Positions 1 through 41,225 of a stretch of 42,168 nucleotides of DNA are shown here, piece after piece. Source of the DNA: a virus. How positions within the stretch are numbered: the first letter of the stretch is position 1; every line of letters starts with the position of its first letter. The translations under genes were made by a program, and so were the position numbers. Under the pieces are notes generated by a model. The model was not told the DNA's origin and searched no databases. It saw only the letters and a program-made list of their open reading frames with translations. The stretch spans positions 1 through 42,168 of IMG/VR virus record IMGVR_UViG_3300035659_001198, one strand, 5' to 3'.

Positions 1-933
1 GCTTTGGCGTACTTTTCGAACGGTTGTGGAAATTATTGCATGATGATGCCAGCACTCCAAGCAGTCGCATCCATGACGGAGAATAAACAGATAGACATCT
101 GCCTAACCGATGAATGGTCGGATAGTCGGAGGGAAGCCGTGGAAGAGCTTTGCAAGGCGTGGCCGGTTGTCAATAAGGTCTTGAGTTGGCCCAGAGACAG
201 GATAGACGAGAAGAAATATGATCTTTGGTATCTCTCTGTGCATGGAGTCCAATCCGATGTACTCTATGTTTTCCTCAGCAACATGAAGAAGAGGATTACC
301 CCCAAACCATCTTGGAGGTCTTCGATGGTGCATGAGGCCGACCACTATATGGACATAGCATATGCCATGGGGTATGAGGGGTCAGTGCCGCAGGTAATTT
401 TCCCTCTTGCTGACAAACCGATTCTTGACCTCCCAAGGCCGATCATCGGGCTGTGTAATGGGTACTTCAGGACATCAACCCACTACTGGGATAAGAAGGG
501 GTGGCCGCACTTTCGGGGACTCTCCGAATCGCTCAATCTATATTTTGGGGGGGCGACGGTGGGCCTCGGAAGGGAGAACGAAATTCCAAAGGACGTGCAG
601 ATGACGGCGGACTATACTGGAAAGCTGAACATCCTGGAGACGGCGAAGGTGATCTCTCAACTCGATCTTCTCGTCACGACGGATACGGGGTTGATGCACG
701 TCGCCGACATTCTTAGAGTGCCGCTGATCGCCATGTTCGGGCCGACCTTGCCTACCAAGAATGCCCCGAGGGGGAAAGGATCGAAAATCATCCAGGCCGG
801 ACAAAAGTGTGTCCCGTGCCAGGACACGTCGGCCTTTCAGGTCTGCAAGTCCAACGAGTGCATGAGGTCTATAACCGTGGGGGACGTGATGGCGAAAGCA
901 AGGGAAATGCTTTTTAATCATTCAAAATCGTAG
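1..933 (+). CDS. Glycosyltransferase family 9 (heptosyltransferase-like), 5' edge at window start
   Basis: This is probably a GT9-type sugar transferase (GT-B fold, nucleotide-sugar donor) that modifies a virion protein or a host surface glycan. The frame is open to the left edge, with a TTG at 4, so a few N-terminal residues may be missing. The N-terminal NGCGNYCMMMPALQAVAS matches the family's first glycine-rich loop. The C-terminal half has DTGLMHVAD followed by MFGPTLPTKNAP, the donor-binding signature of the family. After it comes a cysteine cluster (CVPCQ...CKSNECM) of the kind seen in many GT9 proteins. It is followed by an SLH-domain gene and lies in a cluster with another glycosyltransferase and a methyltransferase. 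The acceptor is unknown. Confidence 0.85.
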   Translation, partial: ALAYFSNGCGNYCMMMPALQAVASMTENKQIDICLTDEWSDSRREAVEELCKAWPVVNKVLSWPRDRIDEKKYDLWYLSVHGVQSDVLYVFLSNMKKRITPKPSWRSSMVHEADHYMDIAYAMGYEGSVPQVIFPLADKPILDLPRPIIGLCNGYFRTSTHYWDKKGWPHFRGLSESLNLYFGGATVGLGRENEIPKDVQMTADYTGKLNILETAKVISQLDLLVTTDTGLMHVADILRVPLIAMFGPTLPTKNAPRGKGSKIIQAGQKCVPCQDTSAFQVCKSNECMRSITVGDVMAKAREMLFNHSKS

Positions 934-23364: not shown

Positions 23365-24024
23365 ATGAAAGACAATCGCTCCATTGAATCGAAGATCGTA
23401 AAGACCGAGCCCGTGAAATGGAAGGCCCTGGAGATACTCCAAACCAAGGACCTGAAGGAGATGTCCAAGGAATCCTACGGGCGACTAAAGACATCGCTCA
23501 TAGACAACTCCTTCGTTCAGACCTTGAATGTCTGGGCAAACAACGGGAAGCTTTACTGCCTTGATGGATACCACCGGATCAAGGTAATGATGGAACTGGA
23601 GAAAGAAGGTTATACCGTACCCGAAGAACTGCCCGCCAATTTTATAGCGTGCCGTAACCGTAAGGAGGCTTCCAAATTGGTGCTAATCTATTCGGCCATT
23701 TATGCCAATGTGACCGGCGAGGGGCTTTATGAATTCATGAACTCGGAAGGATTGGAATTGAATGATATCAAGTTTGATGTGGAGTTGCCGGAGATAGACT
23801 TTGAAAAATTTGAGAAAGAGTTCTTTGAAGAGAAAGAGCAAGGCGGGAATGGTGGTGGGATGATTCCTGAAAAAGATCCTAATATCATTGCTCGCATTTC
23901 GTTTCATCCAGGGATGTGGCTTGGGAAGCGTGAAGAGATTTTGAATGTCTTTGAAAAAATGAAAAAATCCTATATCTTTCTTTTGGCCGGGATGACTTTT
24001 CCTACGGTATGGCCTTATGCCTAA
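23365..24024 (+). CDS. ParB-like domain protein, overlapping a radical SAM gene
   Basis: A 219-residue protein. Residues 1-155 are clearly homologous to the N-terminal domain of the ParB-methyltransferase at 6061 (shared VxWKxL, LKEMxKES, NVWxNNGK, LDGYHR versus LDGHHR, ANFIxCxNRKEA, YSAIYANVT). Instead of a methyltransferase it continues through an acidic/glycine linker (EKEQGGNGGGM) into PNIIARISFHPGMWLGKREE. It then ends IFLLAGMTF, which looks like the first strand of a Rossmann-type domain. It overlaps the next gene by 16 bases in another frame. It probably binds nucleotide (ParB/Srx fold) and positions its partner on DNA or protein. Confidence 0.75.
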   Translation: MKDNRSIESKIVKTEPVKWKALEILQTKDLKEMSKESYGRLKTSLIDNSFVQTLNVWANNGKLYCLDGYHRIKVMMELEKEGYTVPEELPANFIACRNRKEASKLVLIYSAIYANVTGEGLYEFMNSEGLELNDIKFDVELPEIDFEKFEKEFFEEKEQGGNGGGMIPEKDPNIIARISFHPGMWLGKREEILNVFEKMKKSYIFLLAGMTFPTVWPYA

Positions 24025-25283
24025 ACAGCCTTCCTAAAGAAAACCTTTTCAGGGTTACTTCCAAAACCGCAAAATATGTTGACTGGCTTCTCTTCTCTTG
24101 CTTTTGGTGGGAACATATATATTTATTGGCAGATTTTCTGAGAAAAGCAGGAATTAGGAAAGGAGATACTGAAAGACCAAAAATCATAGTAGGTGGTTTT
24201 AACACTTTTAATCCTGTCCCATTTCAGGCCTATGCTGATTATGTAGTTTGTGGTGACGGTGAGGAGATCCTTCCCAAAATTATTGAGGGTAAAGAATCTC
24301 CTCCCCTGGAGTGGCTAAATGTGGACCCGCTTAGAGGGTTTCTTTTAGAAAACCAAAAAGGAATTGCTCGAATTGAGATTGCAAGGGGCTGTAAATTTAG
24401 ATGCCACTTCTGTGCGGTTTCTCATTTGAAACCATACCGAGAAGTGCCATTTGATGAAGTATATGAGCAATTAAAGAAAACAAAATCTCCGCGTGTTTCC
24501 TGCTTTTCTCCCGAACCGACCTTGCATTCTCGAAATGATGAAATCACAGATATGTGTCACCGATTAGGTAAGCACCGTGAGGATAGCGATGTTCGCCTTG
24601 ATCGAATCTCTAAAAAATCGGATGCTGTTCCAAGAGTAGGCATAGAGGGTTTATCGGAGAGGCTTAGAAAATCAATCGGGAAGCCTTATGAGGATGAACA
24701 AATTATTGAGGCCATAGATAGGGCTATAAAAGAAAAGAGGAAAGGAATCTTTCTCTATTTTATCCTGGACCTTCCAGGAGAAACGGAAGAAGACTGGATG
24801 GCCTTCCATATCTTGTTTAAAAAGATTGATAAAATTCCAGGGATTCAAGATTTTGTAGTCAAACCTTCTCCTTCAGTGTTTCTGCCTAATCCACACACCC
24901 CGATGGAATTTGATGGAATCCATTGGGATAGACCATATCAACAAAAATGGATTAACATATTTCACGGCAAAGGGAAAAGGGATCGAACAGAAAATAGAGA
25001 ATGGGAGATGATATTGACCGAAAGGTCGAGAGTGTTCTCCCCTGCAAATAGGGTGCTTTGTATGATTTCAACCCGTGCAGGAGAAGAATTTTCAGCCATT
25101 GAAGAAGAATTATCGAGAAAAAAAGCGATTCAGGATCAGGGCGGGAGGGTGAAGTGTGTGAATCAAAATCTGTTGATACGAGTCCTCACAAAATATGGTG
25201 GTGTGGATCATTACTGTGGTGGAATTGATGAGAATCAAAAATCATCTACTCCTTGGAAAAAATTAATTGTAAAATCTAAATAA
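24009..25283 (+). CDS. Radical SAM protein with B12-binding-like N-terminal part
   Basis: A 424-residue protein. CKFRCHFC (CxxxCxxC) at about 130-137 binds the radical SAM 4Fe-4S cluster, preceded by IARIEIARG. Later VGIEGLSERLRKSIGKPY and FLYFILDLPGETEEDW are the family's SAM-contact motifs. N-terminal KIIVGGFNTFNPVPFQAYAD and YVVCGDGEE resemble the end of a cobalamin-binding Rossmann domain, but without the DxHxxG motif. The start lacks a ribosome site and overlaps the ParB-domain gene, whose last residues (YIFLLAGMTF) look like the missing first strand. So translation coupling, a frameshifted fusion or a sequence error is likely. Substrate unknown; a nucleic acid base is possible. Confidence 0.8.
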   Translation: MALCLNSLPKENLFRVTSKTAKYVDWLLFSCFWWEHIYLLADFLRKAGIRKGDTERPKIIVGGFNTFNPVPFQAYADYVVCGDGEEILPKIIEGKESPPLEWLNVDPLRGFLLENQKGIARIEIARGCKFRCHFCAVSHLKPYREVPFDEVYEQLKKTKSPRVSCFSPEPTLHSRNDEITDMCHRLGKHREDSDVRLDRISKKSDAVPRVGIEGLSERLRKSIGKPYEDEQIIEAIDRAIKEKRKGIFLYFILDLPGETEEDWMAFHILFKKIDKIPGIQDFVVKPSPSVFLPNPHTPMEFDGIHWDRPYQQKWINIFHGKGKRDRTENREWEMILTERSRVFSPANRVLCMISTRAGEEFSAIEEELSRKKAIQDQGGRVKCVNQNLLIRVLTKYGGVDHYCGGIDENQKSSTPWKKLIVKSK

Positions 25284-25833: not shown

Positions 25834-26007
25834 ATGAAAACTAATCAGATCAAAAAAGAGTATGAGAGGGAGGATCGAGAGACAGGAATAGAAAAACTGC
25901 TCCATCTCTCCTATGATCGGCTGGCTGATGGCGGGCGAAATCGCAACAGATCGCCCAGGAGAATTGATCCCGAAACAGCGGAAGCAATCCGACGGATGTG
26001 GGCATGA
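25834..26007 (+). CDS. Small protein with C-terminal RRIDPxTAxAIRR motif (1 of 3)
   Basis: A 57-residue product starting 4 bases after the previous stop. The charged N-terminus (KKEYEREDRETGIEKLL) is followed by GGRNRNRSPRRIDPETAEAIRRMWA. The last 25 residues match almost residue for residue those of the gene at 26928 and more loosely those at 26029. The DNA of that part is also nearly identical to the copy at 26928, including GAAATCGCAACAGATCGCCC. The basic, helical ending suggests nucleic acid or protein binding, but the role is unknown. Confidence 0.6.
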   Translation: MKTNQIKKEYEREDRETGIEKLLHLSYDRLADGGRNRNRSPRRIDPETAEAIRRMWA

Positions 26008-26202: not shown

Positions 26203-26415
26203 ATGAAAATTAAAGCCCACACTAACACGTTGAATTGCAACAGATGTCAAAGGTCATTTACTGCACCATTGAACGGGGAAGCAAGCGAGTATTACAAGGG
26301 AGTGACAAGGGTAACATATCCCTTGATGACTTGCCCATATTGCGGCATGCACGATAGCCACTACATTTACGAAAGAGATAATAAAGACGTAGAAATAATT
26401 AAAATAGAATTATAA
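26203..26415 (+). CDS. Small zinc-ribbon protein
   Basis: A 70-residue protein with ribosome site GAAAGGAATAGAAA. CNRCQRSF and later MTCPYCGMHD give two CxxC pairs about 30 residues apart, a treble-clef or ribbon zinc site. The remaining part is short beta sequence and an acidic end. Phage early proteins of this kind often bind host RNA polymerase or nucleic acid, but no partner can be named here. Confidence 0.65.
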   Translation: MKIKAHTNTLNCNRCQRSFTAPLNGEASEYYKGVTRVTYPLMTCPYCGMHDSHYIYERDNKDVEIIKIEL

Positions 26416-26471
26416 CTTAAACTCAGCCCACCCCGACATAACACCGGGTAGAAAGGGGAAAGGAGTAGAAA

Positions 26472-26900
26472 ATGAAACGATTTATTAGCGTAATGGGATG
26501 GAGTAAGCATCATAAGCAGATGGATAGCAACCCAAAATTGGACACCGCTGCCAAGGGACCACGGGATTGTGAAAGTGGGTATATCGTCTACAAGATCAAC
26601 CCCGATGGCTCCCATACCAATCTGACTGTTGATATGTCCGAACCCATCACCCTCAATCGGTGCATAAAAATATTGGCTGAAGCTGAGCGCATGACGGGTA
26701 ACAATTACTCCAAAATCGTTGTTGAGGATGAGTCCTTTGATGATGCGGGAGAGACCATTAATCGCAAGCATTATGTGTACTCGGTCAAACATAACCGCCT
26801 GACCATCTGGGCTGGGAAACGAGGCCTCTCGCCGGTCTATGAAAATTGGGACGGGACGATTTGCAAAGATCAAGATGCTCTTGCAGATTGTTTGCTTTAA
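26472..26900 (+). CDS. Unrecognised early protein
   Basis: A 142-residue protein with an excellent ribosome site (GGGGAAAGGAGTAGAAA). It has a beta-rich, soluble pattern (SGYIVYKINPDGSHTNLTVDM, TLNRCIKILAEAERMTGNN, HYVYSVKHNRLTIWAG) and a small cysteine content. No family, signal peptide or membrane segment is seen. Confidence 0.6.
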   Translation: MKRFISVMGWSKHHKQMDSNPKLDTAAKGPRDCESGYIVYKINPDGSHTNLTVDMSEPITLNRCIKILAEAERMTGNNYSKIVVEDESFDDAGETINRKHYVYSVKHNRLTIWAGKRGLSPVYENWDGTICKDQDALADCLL

Positions 26901-26927
26901 AAAATCAAACGCCAAAAGGAGGAAATT

Positions 26928-27059
26928 ATGGATTACAAATGGGAATCTAAGTTGCTCCATGAGCACCCGGCGAAGCACAACGCCGGAAGAAATCGCAACA
27001 GATCGCCCAGAAGAATTGACCCCAAGACCGCAGACGCCATTCGGAGGGCGTTCTGCTGA
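26928..27059 (+). CDS. Small protein with C-terminal RRIDPxTAxAIRR motif (3 of 3)
   Basis: A 43-residue product, with AAAAGGAGGAAATT before ATG. The ending GRNRNRSPRRIDPKTADAIRRAFC repeats that of the gene at 25834, with about 80 percent identity over 24 residues, and ends in AFC like the gene at 26029. The N-terminus (MDYKWESKLLHEHPAKH) is different. Three relatives within 1.2 kb point to local duplication and divergence of a small protein family. Confidence 0.6.
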   Translation: MDYKWESKLLHEHPAKHNAGRNRNRSPRRIDPKTADAIRRAFC

Positions 27060-27073
27060 AAGAGGAGGAAATA

Positions 27074-27292
27074 ATGAAAACGAGAAACCAAATTGCAGAG
27101 GAATTAATGTCAGGGTGCCAAACGGATGAGGAGTGGGGTGAGGATGAACGGAAACCCTGGACGGATCATGAGACCATTGCAGAGGCAATTCGGGATGGTA
27201 TGGCCATCGATGAAATCCTAAATATGCCGGAAATGGAATCGTGGCCTGAAACATATGTTTGGGTGAAAAATGAATTGAAGAGTGAGAATTGA
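27074..27292 (+). CDS. Small acidic helical protein
   Basis: A 72-residue protein, with AAAGAGGAGGAAATA before ATG. It is acidic and helical (NQIAEELMSGCQTDEEWG, HETIAEAIRDGMAIDEILN) and ends WPETYVWVKNELKSEN. The high acidic charge makes a DNA-mimic or other inhibitor conceivable, but nothing specific is visible. Confidence 0.6.
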   Translation: MKTRNQIAEELMSGCQTDEEWGEDERKPWTDHETIAEAIRDGMAIDEILNMPEMESWPETYVWVKNELKSEN

Positions 27293-27329
27293 TACCAAAT
27301 AACATTCCGAGACGAAGGAGGTAAGACAA

Positions 27330-27566
27330 ATGAATTTAGTGACCTTATACAAAAGCCTTCCCCAAGCAGTAGCAATCCCAGATATCATTTGGACCGCACA
27401 GGCAGAAATTGAACGGATGGAGGAACTTAGGGCAGAACTCCAGACTCTCGAAAATAAATATGCGTCTGAAACAATCCCGACAATGTTGGAGGCTCTTAGG
27501 GTAGACTGGACGGATAAGGAATTGACCGAGGGAGGTTTCCTTAAATCAGGATTGGAGAGCGAATGA
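27330..27566 (+). CDS. Small helical protein
   Basis: A 78-residue protein with GAAGGAGGTAAGACAA before ATG. Residues 20-60 are a probable coiled coil (IWTAQAEIERMEELRAELQT, LENKYASET). It ends just before the solitary CRISPR repeat. No function can be assigned. Confidence 0.6.
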   Translation: MNLVTLYKSLPQAVAIPDIIWTAQAEIERMEELRAELQTLENKYASETIPTMLEALRVDWTDKELTEGGFLKSGLESE

Positions 27567-27577
27567 AAAAGAAATCA

Positions 27578-27609
27578 GTTTCAATCCACGCGCCCGCATG
27601 GGGCGCGAC
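27578..27609 (-). CRISPR. Solitary type I-C-like CRISPR repeat (single unit, 32 bp)
   Basis: Exactly 32 bases read on the minus strand GTCGCGCCCCATGCGGGCGC and then GTGGATTGAAAC, the layout of type I-C repeats: GTCGC start, a GC-rich stem with GCATG-type loop, and the invariant end GATTGAAAC. The stem CGCGCCC (27589-27595) / GGGCGCG (27601-27607) has seven pairs. There is no second repeat, no spacer array, no leader and no cas gene in the window, so this is one isolated unit. It lies between two + strand genes, opposite to its own sense. Such solitary repeats in phages are known to include RNA-based anti-CRISPRs. Confidence 0.85.
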
Positions 27610-27638
27610 GAAAACAGACGTGAGGAAAGGAGGATACG

Positions 27639-28241
27639 ATGAACCAATTAATCGTTAAATATCAAGGAGAATGCAAGAAATGCGGGCAGTTCTTAGAAGT
27701 TGGTCAACCTGCCATGTATGAGAAAAGCATGGGCATCTTTTGTGTTGGATGCGAACCTAAAGACACAGAAGAAATCAGGACTTTCCGACTTGCGAAGGCC
27801 GAACGCAAAGCGAAGAAATATGAAGAATGGGCAGGGAAAAGAGAACGGGAGGCCAACGCTCAGTTAAACAGTCATTCAGAAGTCCGGCATGACTGGGCTT
27901 TCATCACCCAACCCGGCCATATCCCGTTCAGAGCGCAGATGATAAAGGCCGATGATAGAGCGTTTGAAAGCCTCCAGGTTGCAAAAGGATTCAGATGGAA
28001 AGCGAAAAACTTACTCAATGTTCGGGTAGCTGGGGATGCAGAGAAAGAAAGACAAGCTAAAAGAGAAGCACTTGACCAACTTATTAGCAAGGGAAGCAAA
28101 GTTATTGATACCATTTTTGGTGAAGGGACCGTCTTGAGTATCCACAAAAAATCGTACCGGATTCAGTTTAATTCCAAATGCGGACCTGACCAGTTTTTTA
28201 CTTGTGCCAGAGATAAAAGTTACGTTCGCCCAGTTATTTAA
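27639..28241 (+). CDS. DUF3560-like protein with N-terminal zinc ribbon
   Basis: A 200-residue protein with GAAAGGAGGATACG before ATG. It has an N-terminal zinc ribbon (CKKCGQFLEVGQPAMYEKSM, then CVGC). A charged helical middle follows (AERKAKKYEEWAGKREREAN, SHSEVRHDWAFITQPGHIPF), the form of DUF3560 proteins that contain a RAxKYEExAxR helix and a GHHS-type segment. The C-terminal 50 residues form a small beta domain (SKVIDTIFGEGTVLSIHKKS). DUF3560 proteins are common in plasmids and phages without a settled function. Confidence 0.6.
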   Translation: MNQLIVKYQGECKKCGQFLEVGQPAMYEKSMGIFCVGCEPKDTEEIRTFRLAKAERKAKKYEEWAGKREREANAQLNSHSEVRHDWAFITQPGHIPFRAQMIKADDRAFESLQVAKGFRWKAKNLLNVRVAGDAEKERQAKREALDQLISKGSKVIDTIFGEGTVLSIHKKSYRIQFNSKCGPDQFFTCARDKSYVRPVI

Positions 28242-28275
28242 CCTTAACCACCCGCGAGGGAGAAAGGGATTGAAA

Positions 28276-28533
28276 ATGAGAGATATTCAGATTTATCGAT
28301 CAACCGATTATGATTGCGTAATCAACCTTTTTAATGGCCGGGCTGATGTCGGAAGGGAAGAGGTTGTTATTAAAACTAAGAATGTTTACGGCACTCTTTA
28401 TACCTATGCTGAACCTTCAATCCCTGGTCAATATGCCTTTGGCGGCACGATCCTTTTTACTTCAAACGGGATCTTCCCAGAATTTAACGCTCCAATAAAA
28501 TTACATGATCGCAGAATGGATTTAGAAAGTTAA
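28276..28533 (+). CDS. Small unrecognised protein
   Basis: An 85-residue protein starting at ATG 28276 with AGAAAGGGATTGAAA as ribosome site; a longer frame from 28204 overlaps the previous gene. It is beta-rich (DYDCVINLFNGRADVGREE, TLYTYAEPSIPGQYAFGGTI). No family is recognised. Confidence 0.5.
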   Translation: MRDIQIYRSTDYDCVINLFNGRADVGREEVVIKTKNVYGTLYTYAEPSIPGQYAFGGTILFTSNGIFPEFNAPIKLHDRRMDLES

Positions 28534-28558
28534 CCCCCACACCTTCCCCAGCATCACA

Positions 28559-28589
28559 TTGACATTTTTCGATTGTCGTGAATACAGAC
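28559..28589 (+). promoter_or_regulatory. Possible promoter for gene at 28635
   Basis: TTGACA (28559-28564) is a perfect -35 box, followed at 18 bases by TACAGA, a weak -10 candidate. The segment ACAGACGTGA at 28584 also occurs next to the CRISPR repeat (27614). It lies in the 101-base gap before the next gene and could start a new message. Confidence 0.35.
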
Positions 28590-28634
28590 GTGAAAAAGGG
28601 TAGTTTTTAAATAAAATACTGAAAGGAGAAAACG

Positions 28635-29879
28635 ATGAAAACGGAAAAACGAGCACAGATGATCACGGACAAAATCAGCAAAATCACATCAGACGAATCC
28701 CAGGTGATCTCCACTTACCGAACCTCCGACAGTTCCGTGCAGGCGGAGTTGAGGTTGAGGGCGGAGTGGACGATCCGAGTGCCCGTGGATGAGATCAATT
28801 CCCCCAGGGATTTGAGCGGGAAAAACGGTGAACTTTGGAGCTCCATGTGGCCACTAACCCGTGATATCTCCAAAACCTCCGAGCTGAAAACGGGCAACAG
28901 CCGTGTGACCATCCCTATCAGCGCAAAAACCAAAACAGGACCGGAACGGCGCACCGAAGCTAAAAATCTCTGGTTGACCGAAACCGGAACCGCATTTTTG
29001 AGTGATTACCGCGCCGTGACCGGCAAACGACACCTCGCCGAAATCCGCAACCAGATCACCGACCTCCAATCGCAGCAAAAAGCCCTCATCCCGAAACTCC
29101 GGGAATCCAACTCCATTTATTTGGCAGGCAAAAAAACCGAGCGGGGGGAACTGGCTACCAAAAACGCTGAGGCTCTCAAATCCGGAAAATTTTGGGAGGC
29201 AGACAAGGACACCCTTAAAGGTTATTTCCACCCCCCGTTTGATAAAAATTACCTTGCCGATGTCTCCGAGAAATGGCGCGCCGCCCTGTTTTTGGAGTGT
29301 GAATCGGTCTCCTACAAGCGATATTCCGGCGACTGGGGACACAAACTCACGGGAACCGGGCGAGGCTATCTCTGCGGGATTGACGACAACGGGGATGAGT
29401 GGGGGCACAGGGTTGAGAATCTCCCTCAATCCCATGACCAATTTGGAGATGCCGGGCTGGACAGCACGGTTGAGGAGGCGATGGAAAACCTGTTTGATAT
29501 CTCCAAAACTGCCCTCGCCAATTGCCAGCGACAGGGCGATCTCTTGTTTTGCTCGGAAAAAATTCCGGGGAAGAGAACCATTTGCGATCATTGCGGATAT
29601 CCCTATCATGCGGATTATCAAGCGATAGGAAAAGCCTATCCATGCGGATGTTACTCCGGTGAGGCAATTCCAAAAACACTCCCCGCCGTGGAACTCCATC
29701 CCGAAGAGAAATGGATTCCTCGTGAGTCTCATGAGATCACGAGTATCAGTCTCCAACGAAATGGGAGATATTTTAAATCAGATCACGAGATCACGGTATT
29801 GCACACCAGCCATCCGGTGGTAATGTTGCCACCAGGAGAATATCGGCTGTATGCTCTGAAAATTGCAGACGCTGATTAA
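28635..29879 (+). CDS. Unrecognised protein with cysteine-rich zinc site
   Basis: A 414-residue protein with GAAAGGAGAAAACG before ATG. The N-terminal 100 residues are charged with TxxxxR strands. Residues 120-160 form a coiled coil (KRHLAEIRNQITDLQSQQ). A probable zinc site CDHCGYPYHADYQAIGKAYPCGC lies at about 320-345. The end (HEITSISLQRNGRYFKS, HTSHPVVMLPPGEYRLY) is a beta motif seen at the end of several phage proteins of unknown role. No enzymatic motif is visible. Confidence 0.6.
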   Translation: MKTEKRAQMITDKISKITSDESQVISTYRTSDSSVQAELRLRAEWTIRVPVDEINSPRDLSGKNGELWSSMWPLTRDISKTSELKTGNSRVTIPISAKTKTGPERRTEAKNLWLTETGTAFLSDYRAVTGKRHLAEIRNQITDLQSQQKALIPKLRESNSIYLAGKKTERGELATKNAEALKSGKFWEADKDTLKGYFHPPFDKNYLADVSEKWRAALFLECESVSYKRYSGDWGHKLTGTGRGYLCGIDDNGDEWGHRVENLPQSHDQFGDAGLDSTVEEAMENLFDISKTALANCQRQGDLLFCSEKIPGKRTICDHCGYPYHADYQAIGKAYPCGCYSGEAIPKTLPAVELHPEEKWIPRESHEITSISLQRNGRYFKSDHEITVLHTSHPVVMLPPGEYRLYALKIADAD

Positions 29880-29932
29880 TGTTGAGCCCAAAACGAAATC
29901 ACTGAAAACATTTGTGGAGAAAGGAGATTAAT

Positions 29933-39974: not shown

Positions 39975-40192
39975 GTAACATGCCAATGCGAAAGTTTCGA
40001 GGGAAAGCAGGAGACTAGAGTGGCCAAGATCAGCAATGGTCGTTTGAAGGCAACTGAACTATCTGGACATGGCAGTCCAAAAGACGTTGTAGGTGCTTCC
40101 CAAGCCCACAACCTCTCTGATAGTCAGTCTCGATGGGGTGTATCTACTTGTTTTGGAAACAGTTCAAGGCTTACAGCAACAAAAACTGTTTC
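39966..40192 (+). ncRNA. Predicted omega RNA of the IsrB-like nuclease
   Basis: The region upstream of the nuclease core folds into a string of stems: TGGAC/GTCCA (40064-40079), an 11-bp bulged stem from GTTGT (40086) to ACAAC (40112), CTGA/TCAG (40117-40127), and GAAACAGTT (40156-40164) with AACTGTTTC (40184-40192). IscB/IsrB guide RNAs lie in this position, with the guide at the 5' end outside the element. Boundaries are approximate. This overlaps the first 57 codons of the nuclease frame, which look noncoding. Confidence 0.65.
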
Positions 40193-41225
40193 AGTTCCTG
40201 TTATAGACATTGATCAGAAACCGCAAATGCCAACAACATCAAGTCGTGCAAGGAGGTGGATTAAGGAAGGCAAAGCTACTGGATTCTGGAAAAAAGGTAT
40301 CTTTTGTGTTCGGTTGAATCAAGAACCCTCAAATAGAAACAAGCAAGTAATTGCTATTGGTATTGATCCCGGCAGTAAAAAAGAGGGCTTCACGGTTAAA
40401 TCAGAAGCCCACACTTATCTCAATATTCAAGCTGATGCTGTGACGTGGGTTAAAGATGGTGTGGAAGTACGTAGGAATATGCGTCGCGCTAGAAGGTTTC
40501 GTAAAACTCCTTGTAGAGCTTGTAGACCTAATAGGTCTAAGAAATCCTGGCTACCACCTTCTACAAAAGCCCGTTGGGGTTGGAAATTAAGGATTTGTAA
40601 TTGGTTAATGAAAATGTATCCAATAGATACTTTTGTTGTTGAAGACATAAAAGCCAAGACGATGGGTAAGAGAAAATGGGATCGATCTTTTTCACCCCTT
40701 GAGGTTGGAAAGAATTGGTTTTATGAGGAATTAAATAAACTAGGACATCTGGAAACCAAGCAAGGTTATGAAACAAAAGAATTAAGGGATCAGTTAGGGC
40801 TAAAGAAAACCGGCAAGAGACTCGATTCTATTTTCTCATCTCATTGTGTTGACTCTTGGGTTCTTGCTAATGATTATGTCGGTGGGCATCTGAAACCAGA
40901 TAATACCAATTTGATTTGTATAACACCTCTACAATTTCATCGTAGACAACTCCATGCTCTCCAACCTACTAAAAATGGTATTAGAAGAGATTATGGAAGC
41001 ACAAGGAGTCTTGGATTCAAGCGAGGCTCTTTGGTTAAACATAAAAAGTATGGAAGGGTCTCTGTGGGTGGAACTAGTAATAATAGAATTAGTCTGCATT
41101 CGATAGAGACAGGTAAGCGTTTAGCACAGAATATCAAACCAGTTGATTGTAAATTTCTAACCTACAATATATGGAGGATGGCAATTCCTCCAACGACTAA
41201 AGTCGTTGGTTTCCTTGCCATATAG
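40020..41225 (+). CDS. IsrB-like RNA-guided nuclease (IscB family without HNH)
   Basis: A 401-codon frame from GTG 40020; the conserved protein begins only near codon 57 (VSVPVIDIDQKPQMPTTSSR), the PLMP/RRXRR part. Then IGIDPGSKKEG (RuvC-I, catalytic D), an arginine-rich bridge helix (RRNMRRARRFRKTPCRA), DTFVVEDIKAKT (RuvC-II, E) and HCVDSWVLAND (RuvC-III, D). No HNH lies between RuvC-II and III, so it is IsrB-like, about 345 residues, and would nick one strand. The C-terminal SLVKHKKYGRVSVGGTSNN resembles the family's end domain. No in-frame start codon precedes the core except GTG 40020 or TTG 40044. Confidence 0.8.
   Translation: MAKISNGRLKATELSGHGSPKDVVGASQAHNLSDSQSRWGVSTCFGNSSRLTATKTVSVPVIDIDQKPQMPTTSSRARRWIKEGKATGFWKKGIFCVRLNQEPSNRNKQVIAIGIDPGSKKEGFTVKSEAHTYLNIQADAVTWVKDGVEVRRNMRRARRFRKTPCRACRPNRSKKSWLPPSTKARWGWKLRICNWLMKMYPIDTFVVEDIKAKTMGKRKWDRSFSPLEVGKNWFYEELNKLGHLETKQGYETKELRDQLGLKKTGKRLDSIFSSHCVDSWVLANDYVGGHLKPDNTNLICITPLQFHRRQLHALQPTKNGIRRDYGSTRSLGFKRGSLVKHKKYGRVSVGGTSNNRISLHSIETGKRLAQNIKPVDCKFLTYNIWRMAIPPTTKVVGFLAI
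41180..41219 (+). repeat. Right-end hairpin of the element
   Basis: GGCAA (41180-41184) pairs with TTGCC (41215-41219) and CCAACGAC (41190-41197) with GTCGTTGG (41202-41209) around TAAA. This is the right-end hairpin of an IS605-type element and overlaps the last codons of the nuclease gene. The next 84 bases up to 41309 contain only a 25-codon frame of no clear meaning. Confidence 0.8.

Follow-up and report, generated by a model that had tools for sequence, protein, structure and literature searches.

The locus and its neighbours

The window, by which we mean the whole stretch of 42,168 nucleotides of viral DNA that was analysed, carries on its minus strand (27609..27578) the 32-nt sequence GTCGCGCCCCATGCGGGCGCGTGGATTGAAAC, set in a gap of 72 nt between two plus-strand genes (Table 1). 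The locus is part of a long run of plus-strand genes, among them those for SbcC/SbcD-like, O-like and DnaB-like proteins of replication and for a RusA-like resolvase. An initial annotation of this DNA had described a tightly packed region in which the repeat is antisense to the genes on either side, and this layout is what is found between the ORFs 27330-27566 and 27639-28241; it had overlooked a plus-strand ORF of 31 codons that passes through the repeat (27563-27658). The start of this small ORF overlaps the stop of the upstream gene (ATGA) and GGAG lies upstream of it; the frame may be there by chance. Family scans of the neighbouring proteins recognised no known anti-CRISPR gene nearby.

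Table 1. Features of the repeat locus, with their positions in the window, strand and basis
Feature	Position	Strand	Basis
Solitary type I-C CRISPR repeat GTCGCGCCCCATGCGGGCGCGTGGATTGAAAC	27578..27609	-	Sequence, fold, Rfam, exact match to bacterial I-C arrays
Counterpart of the crRNA 3' handle: stem 27601-27607 with 27589-27595, loop CATGC	27589..27609	-	Fold and B. halodurans Cas5d literature
Counterpart of the crRNA 5' handle: 11-nt tail TGGATTGAAAC	27578..27588	-	Sequence and literature
Extended hairpin enclosing the repeat (TGTTTTC pairs with GAAAC), then T-rich TTTCTTTTT	27566..27619	-	Fold
Gene on the upstream side, product of 78 aa in no known family, 11 nt between its end and the repeat	27330..27566	+	ORF list, family scan
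Gene on the downstream side, product of 200 aa in no known family, 29 nt between the repeat and its start, with ribosome-binding site	27639..28241	+	ORF list, family scan
Possible small ORF through the repeat (MKKKSVSIHAPAWGATKTDVRKGGYDEPINR), 31 codons	27563..27658	+	Sequence
Promoter-like site TTAACG-16-TATCCT, the best on the minus strand ahead of the repeat	27631..27658	-	Sigma-70-like scan against shuffles

In the computed fold the repeat consists of a 7-bp stem (CGCGCCC/GGGCGCG), a 5-nt loop and a free 11-nt tail. The type I-C processing enzyme Cas5d of B. halodurans yields crRNAs with an 11-nt 5' handle and a 21-nt 3' handle (PMC5965380), and this division into 21 + 11 nt is the exact length of the window repeat; a Cas5d cut is accordingly predicted right after the portion that corresponds to the 3' handle. 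Within 27000-28300 the sole match to the Rfam family CRISPR-DR9 coincides with the repeat on the minus strand, at 21.7 bits (E 0.064), which is under the gathering score; at the gathering score itself no Rfam family was matched. When up to three mismatches are allowed, the repeat has a single match in the window and none in 100 shuffles, and a simple calculation puts the number of exact matches that any given 32-mer should have in 84 kb at about 5e-15. On the minus strand the extended hairpin and the TTTCTTTTT behind it resemble a terminator, which we regard as putative. The fold energy around the repeat is about equal on the two strands (z of -2.2 and -2.4), and the choice of an active strand by folding energy was dropped because both fold equally.

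Several other genes of the window merit mention in their own right. The plus-strand ORF 40020-41225 encodes a 401-aa protein with a Pfam RRXRR domain, whose best relatives of solved structure are IsrB (8dmb, E 1.3e-40) and IscB proteins, and which is a phage-borne relative of the IscB/IsrB-like RNA-guided nucleases; no omega-RNA family had a match near it. A radical SAM protein is encoded at 24009-25283 (+), near DNA methyltransferase genes, and a glycosyltransferase family 9 (heptosyltransferase-like) domain lies at the window start, 4-933 (+).

A bacterial type I-C repeat standing alone in a narrow phage lineage

The initial annotation staked its reading on the existence of bacteria with the same repeat, and these are plentiful: in a scan of one genome per species the exact 32-mer occurs in 49 stretches of bacterial contigs, most of which are arrays. 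The taxa concerned include deltaproteobacterial groups, Bacteroidetes, Spirochaetes, Omnitrophota, planctomycetes and others, so many phyla that the repeat gives no pointer to the host. The cas genes adjoining all three arrays that were checked are of type I-C: Cas5c/d, Cas8c/Csd1, Cas7/Csd2, Cas4, Cas1c and Cas2 in the first (L066), Cas8c, Cas1c and Cas2 in the second (L043), and Cas8c in the third (L037). Since type I-C cas genes adjoin arrays with the same repeat, the subtype call counts as tested. These matches, together with the fold and the Rfam coordinates, confirm that the element is a genuine and complete type I-C CRISPR repeat, its 7-bp GC stem on the minus strand included, as had been claimed.

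Its solitary state was also correctly recognised, as regards array, spacer, leader and cas gene alike. The window locus has no second repeat and no spacer, and no cas gene was recognised among the window proteins scanned. In most host arrays with this repeat the leader has a TTCGCnnAA-like motif ~55 nt upstream, and many of the leaders end in ACA; compared with 22 such arrays, the window flank ...CACGTCTGTTTTC has neither the motif nor the ACA end. A mini-array, or an unloaded array with its leader, is ruled out by the single repeat and the missing leader, and neither the leader nor the two or more repeats that define a CRISPR array or spacer-acquisition site are present. Faure et al. and SRUFinder have catalogued 2,103 solitary repeat units (SRUs) in viruses (PMC10651486, PMC8616872). 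An SRU has to match the repeat of a known CRISPR-Cas subtype at 90% or more in both identity and coverage, here 100% over 32 nt, and to have neither cas genes nor any other full or partial repeat within 100 bp, here one repeat with no repeat-like tail in its flanks and no cas gene among the proteins scanned. SRUs are also intergenic; the window repeat lies within the gap between the flanking ORFs, yet is spanned by the 31-codon ORF. By the published criteria it would thus be classed as an SRU, with this small ORF as the sole reservation.

Two further viral contigs, 3300031707_004158 (G002) and 3300031997_000066 (G001), have the repeat at an identical junction, in the orientation seen in the window. 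The identical junction in three phage contigs rules out an assembly chimera or a misjoin with a host array. The conservation that the initial annotation proposed to look for among related phages is borne out in these two contigs, orientation included, and fails among more distant relatives. The product of the upstream gene has a 41% identical relative in another phage (L143), whose record, which may be a fragment, has no repeat after that gene or anywhere else at up to three mismatches. Relatives of the downstream product, at 45-82% identity, occur in about ten viral contigs, none of which has the repeat; in the distant phages L005-L013 it is absent at up to three mismatches from the whole records, which may be fragments. 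Named phages have no DNA match to 26300-29900 and none to the exact repeat, and a tail protein matches named phages, which infect varied proteobacteria, at less than 25% identity only. Judged by these comparisons, the carriers are one narrow phage lineage only.

Around the repeat the window differs from G002 at 2 of 4,300 sites and from G001 at 2 of 328, and elsewhere the carrier genomes diverge by up to 5% or more. At the divergence around the repeat, an unselected stretch of 32 bp should have changed at about 0.02-0.2 positions. The carriers are too alike around the repeat, and therefore give no information on selection; the argument for selection from the perfect length of the repeat, put forward initially, is not supported, on this count and given the lack of the repeat in distant relatives. 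Since the two flanking genes do not stay side by side in the relatives, there is no empty site for comparison. The neighbourhood is a mosaic in which close relatives exchange modules; at 25.9-27.3 kb the window and G001 have different ones. We also observed ~55-bp direct copies (~84-91% alike) at 25937-25991 and 26989-27043, around GAAATCGCAACAGATCGCCCAGAAGAATTGA, which are gene-module exchange points among close relatives.

Solitary type I-C repeats across viral contigs

Degenerate type I-C patterns were searched for in viral contigs, and arrays, mini-arrays and duplicates were removed; the genes were called by a simple custom script, so that single assignments may be wrong. At least 87 distinct solitary sites were obtained. 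Among the matches listed, the sites with both neighbours on one strand comprise 51 in the sense and 20 in the antisense orientation (P = 3e-4), and those strictly between co-directional genes 36 and 10 (P = 1.6e-4), a ratio of ~3:1. Given this sense bias, the RNA of the repeat strand is generally what matters, as in the acrIC5-racrIC1 operon.

The window lineage is one of the 10 antisense intergenic cases among the matches listed, the other nine being in other viral contigs. In 8 of these 10 the 3' end of the repeat lies no more than 11 nt from the preceding stop codon, compared with 8 of 36 when the sense cases are measured in the corresponding way (P = 0.0015 in a post hoc test, among the matches listed). 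Short gaps that keep the ribosome-binding site free could add to this closeness.

No enrichment of promoters upstream of SRUs was found across the survey, with strong single exceptions (L094, L126 and L097). Two of these, L094 and L126, have a TTGACA-18-TATGGT promoter and a type I-C repeat in common and diverge directly after the repeat, much like a textbook unit for an RNA anti-CRISPR (Racr).

The survey yielded two other observations. AAAC stands directly after 8 of the 87 solitary repeats (GATTGAAAC followed by AAAC; L077, L079, L083, L138, L144, L145, L156 and L176), all of them sense, as against 11 of 1,033 host spacers (P ~5e-6, among the matches listed); it could be a remnant of repeat capture, or it could be selected. 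Moreover, some single viral contigs contain two or three dispersed copies of one type I-C repeat, as in 3300031673_000079 (L077 and L079), 3300032156_001598 (L085 and L114) and 3300020171_000101 (L086 and L087); the copies L077 and L079 have ~20 nt of upstream flank in common.

Possible origin and role of the repeat

The explanation that we tentatively prefer, at somewhat less than even chances, is that this SRU was taken from a bacterial array and is a candidate RNA anti-CRISPR, a mimic of the Racr type made from the minus strand; its transcription, a host with a matching type I-C system, binding and inhibition are what we infer. SRUs are the kind of element from which Racrs arise, and nine tested candidates of this kind inhibit CRISPR, among them RacrIC1 against type I-C (PMC10651486), which bears out the initial statement that phage-borne solitary repeats are known to act as Racrs. 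Having acquired the repeat from an array in bacteria, the phage would express its hairpin on a short transcript of the minus strand. The Cas5d of the host would bind this hairpin as though it were pre-crRNA, cleave it behind the stem and remain attached to the product, perhaps together with Cas7; the fragment upstream of the cut would lack a proper 5' handle and could give no working Cascade, and Cas proteins would in this way be diverted from phage-targeting crRNAs.

The exact 32/32 identity with array repeats, stem and handle included, counts for such mimicry, as do the type I-C cas genes beside such arrays and the same repeat, solitary and leaderless, at the same junction in three phage contigs. 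The frequency and sense bias of solitary type I-C repeats in viruses also count in its favour, the bias being expected if the repeat RNA is the active form, and so do the promoter and repeat that L094 and L126 keep in common, with their difference right after the repeat. Against it counts that read-through of the plus-strand genes gives the complement of the repeat and not the repeat, that no minus-strand promoter rises above chance, that no acr neighbour was recognised and that the carriers are a single narrow lineage. The best promoter-like site is equalled by 37% of shuffles; no minus-strand site within 300 bp upstream of the repeat beats shuffles, and the promoter scan gave none within 250 bp upstream on that strand. 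There is, further, no convincing spacer match: 1,033 spacers from arrays with this repeat match the phage at chance level only, the best match in the window aligning 20 bases of a 34-nt spacer, of which 19 agree (per-query E of 0.001 in a set of 1,033 queries). Relatives of two phage proteins were found in none of the 40 genomes holding the repeat, an empty answer of a kind that weighs little.

A Racr should have the repeat sequence and stem of its host's CRISPR type, and those of the window repeat are as in type I-C repeats, the putative type of its host; it should also have its own promoter within ~250 bp or lie sense in an operon, and neither was found in a test that reads sequence alone and leaves other promoter types possible. 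Because expression was not supported computationally and inhibition is a prediction, we do not file the window repeat as a Racr, though it may still work like one.

Nearly as likely as the minus-strand mimic, and to be thought a serious if doubtful possibility, is a recently captured and functionally silent copy, brought by illegitimate recombination into a region of module exchange, where it landed backwards in a harmless intergenic gap and has so far gone unused. Its minority orientation, its lack of a promoter above chance and its absence from every more distant relative that has the flanking genes suit this reading, and the mosaic surroundings and a divergence among the carriers too small to reveal selection are consistent with it. 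But all 32 bases are intact in three contigs, including parts that a silent insert could lose, and general silence does not fit the abundance of solitary repeats in phages or their directional bias.

An antisense anti-CRISPR appears unlikely. Here the mRNA of the early plus-strand operon, containing the complement of the repeat (GUUUCAAUCCACGCGCCC...), would pair with the repeats of host pre-crRNA, the 11-nt handle serving as a toehold, and block processing by Cas5d or invite cleavage by RNase. Transcription of the operon most simply yields this complement, and the pairing would be strong, the cofolded strands reaching -71.8 kcal/mol where the two hairpins have -14.3 and -16.0; perfect complementarity, however, is automatic for any inverted repeat and hence is no evidence. 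The nine other viral contigs with antisense intergenic repeats, and the stop codon within 11 nt in 8 of the 10 cases among the matches listed, are in its favour, but the sense orientation dominates the survey. Moreover, a low-copy mRNA would face long repeat arrays and would need to be in excess over the many repeats of each pre-crRNA, and the plus strand may be translated (27563-27658), which would unfold the repeat. The antisense mode suggested in the initial annotation thus gained no positive evidence. We consider it improbable, too, that some phages keep type I-C repeats deliberately backwards behind a stop codon in early operons, their mRNA acting as antisense against pre-crRNA repeats, with the window phage as one of about ten independent cases.

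A role at the level of DNA is less probable still: the repeat would offer homology for recombination with, or integration into, a host array, or act as a decoy for Cas1-Cas2. Its 32 bp are perfectly identical to arrays and integration via solitary repeats has been proposed in the literature, but the window proteins scanned include no integrase and the leader motif of host arrays is missing here. That the repeat is merely part of a small plus-strand protein gene (27563-27658) is hardly credible. The frame is open, its start is linked to the stop of the gene before it and its ribosome-binding site is plausible; yet it is just 31 codons long, overlaps the next gene by 20 nt and would leave the exact CRISPR-repeat identity unexplained.

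The window repeat resembles RacrIC1, from a Bifidobacterium pseudocatenulatum prophage (PMC10651486), in being a single type I-C repeat in a phage, without recognised cas genes and with Cas5d as its expected target, and it may share the intergenic position. RacrIC1 lies 11 nt downstream of acrIC5 and forms one bicistronic RNA with it (PMC10651486), whereas the window repeat is antisense to its own operon and lacks both a recognised acr neighbour and a known transcript. With virus-borne mini-CRISPR arrays it has in common a host-identical repeat in a virus lacking cas genes; these arrays, however, have at least one spacer between two repeats, one of them possibly truncated, and the window a single repeat only. 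It is also like the catalogued SRUs (PMC10651486, PMC8616872), which are exact host-like repeats in phages with no second repeat, leader or cas gene nearby; many published SRUs have a promoter just upstream, where the window repeat has none that is recognisable, and in the sequence itself there is no difference. SRUs are already an accepted source of Racrs, and the published Racr cases act as repeat-strand RNA. A clean, leaderless and exact type I-C repeat that opposes its operon, together with the ~3:1 ratio of sense to antisense, makes the role of such antisense copies testable, be they silent, served by promoters of their own or paired with pre-crRNA.
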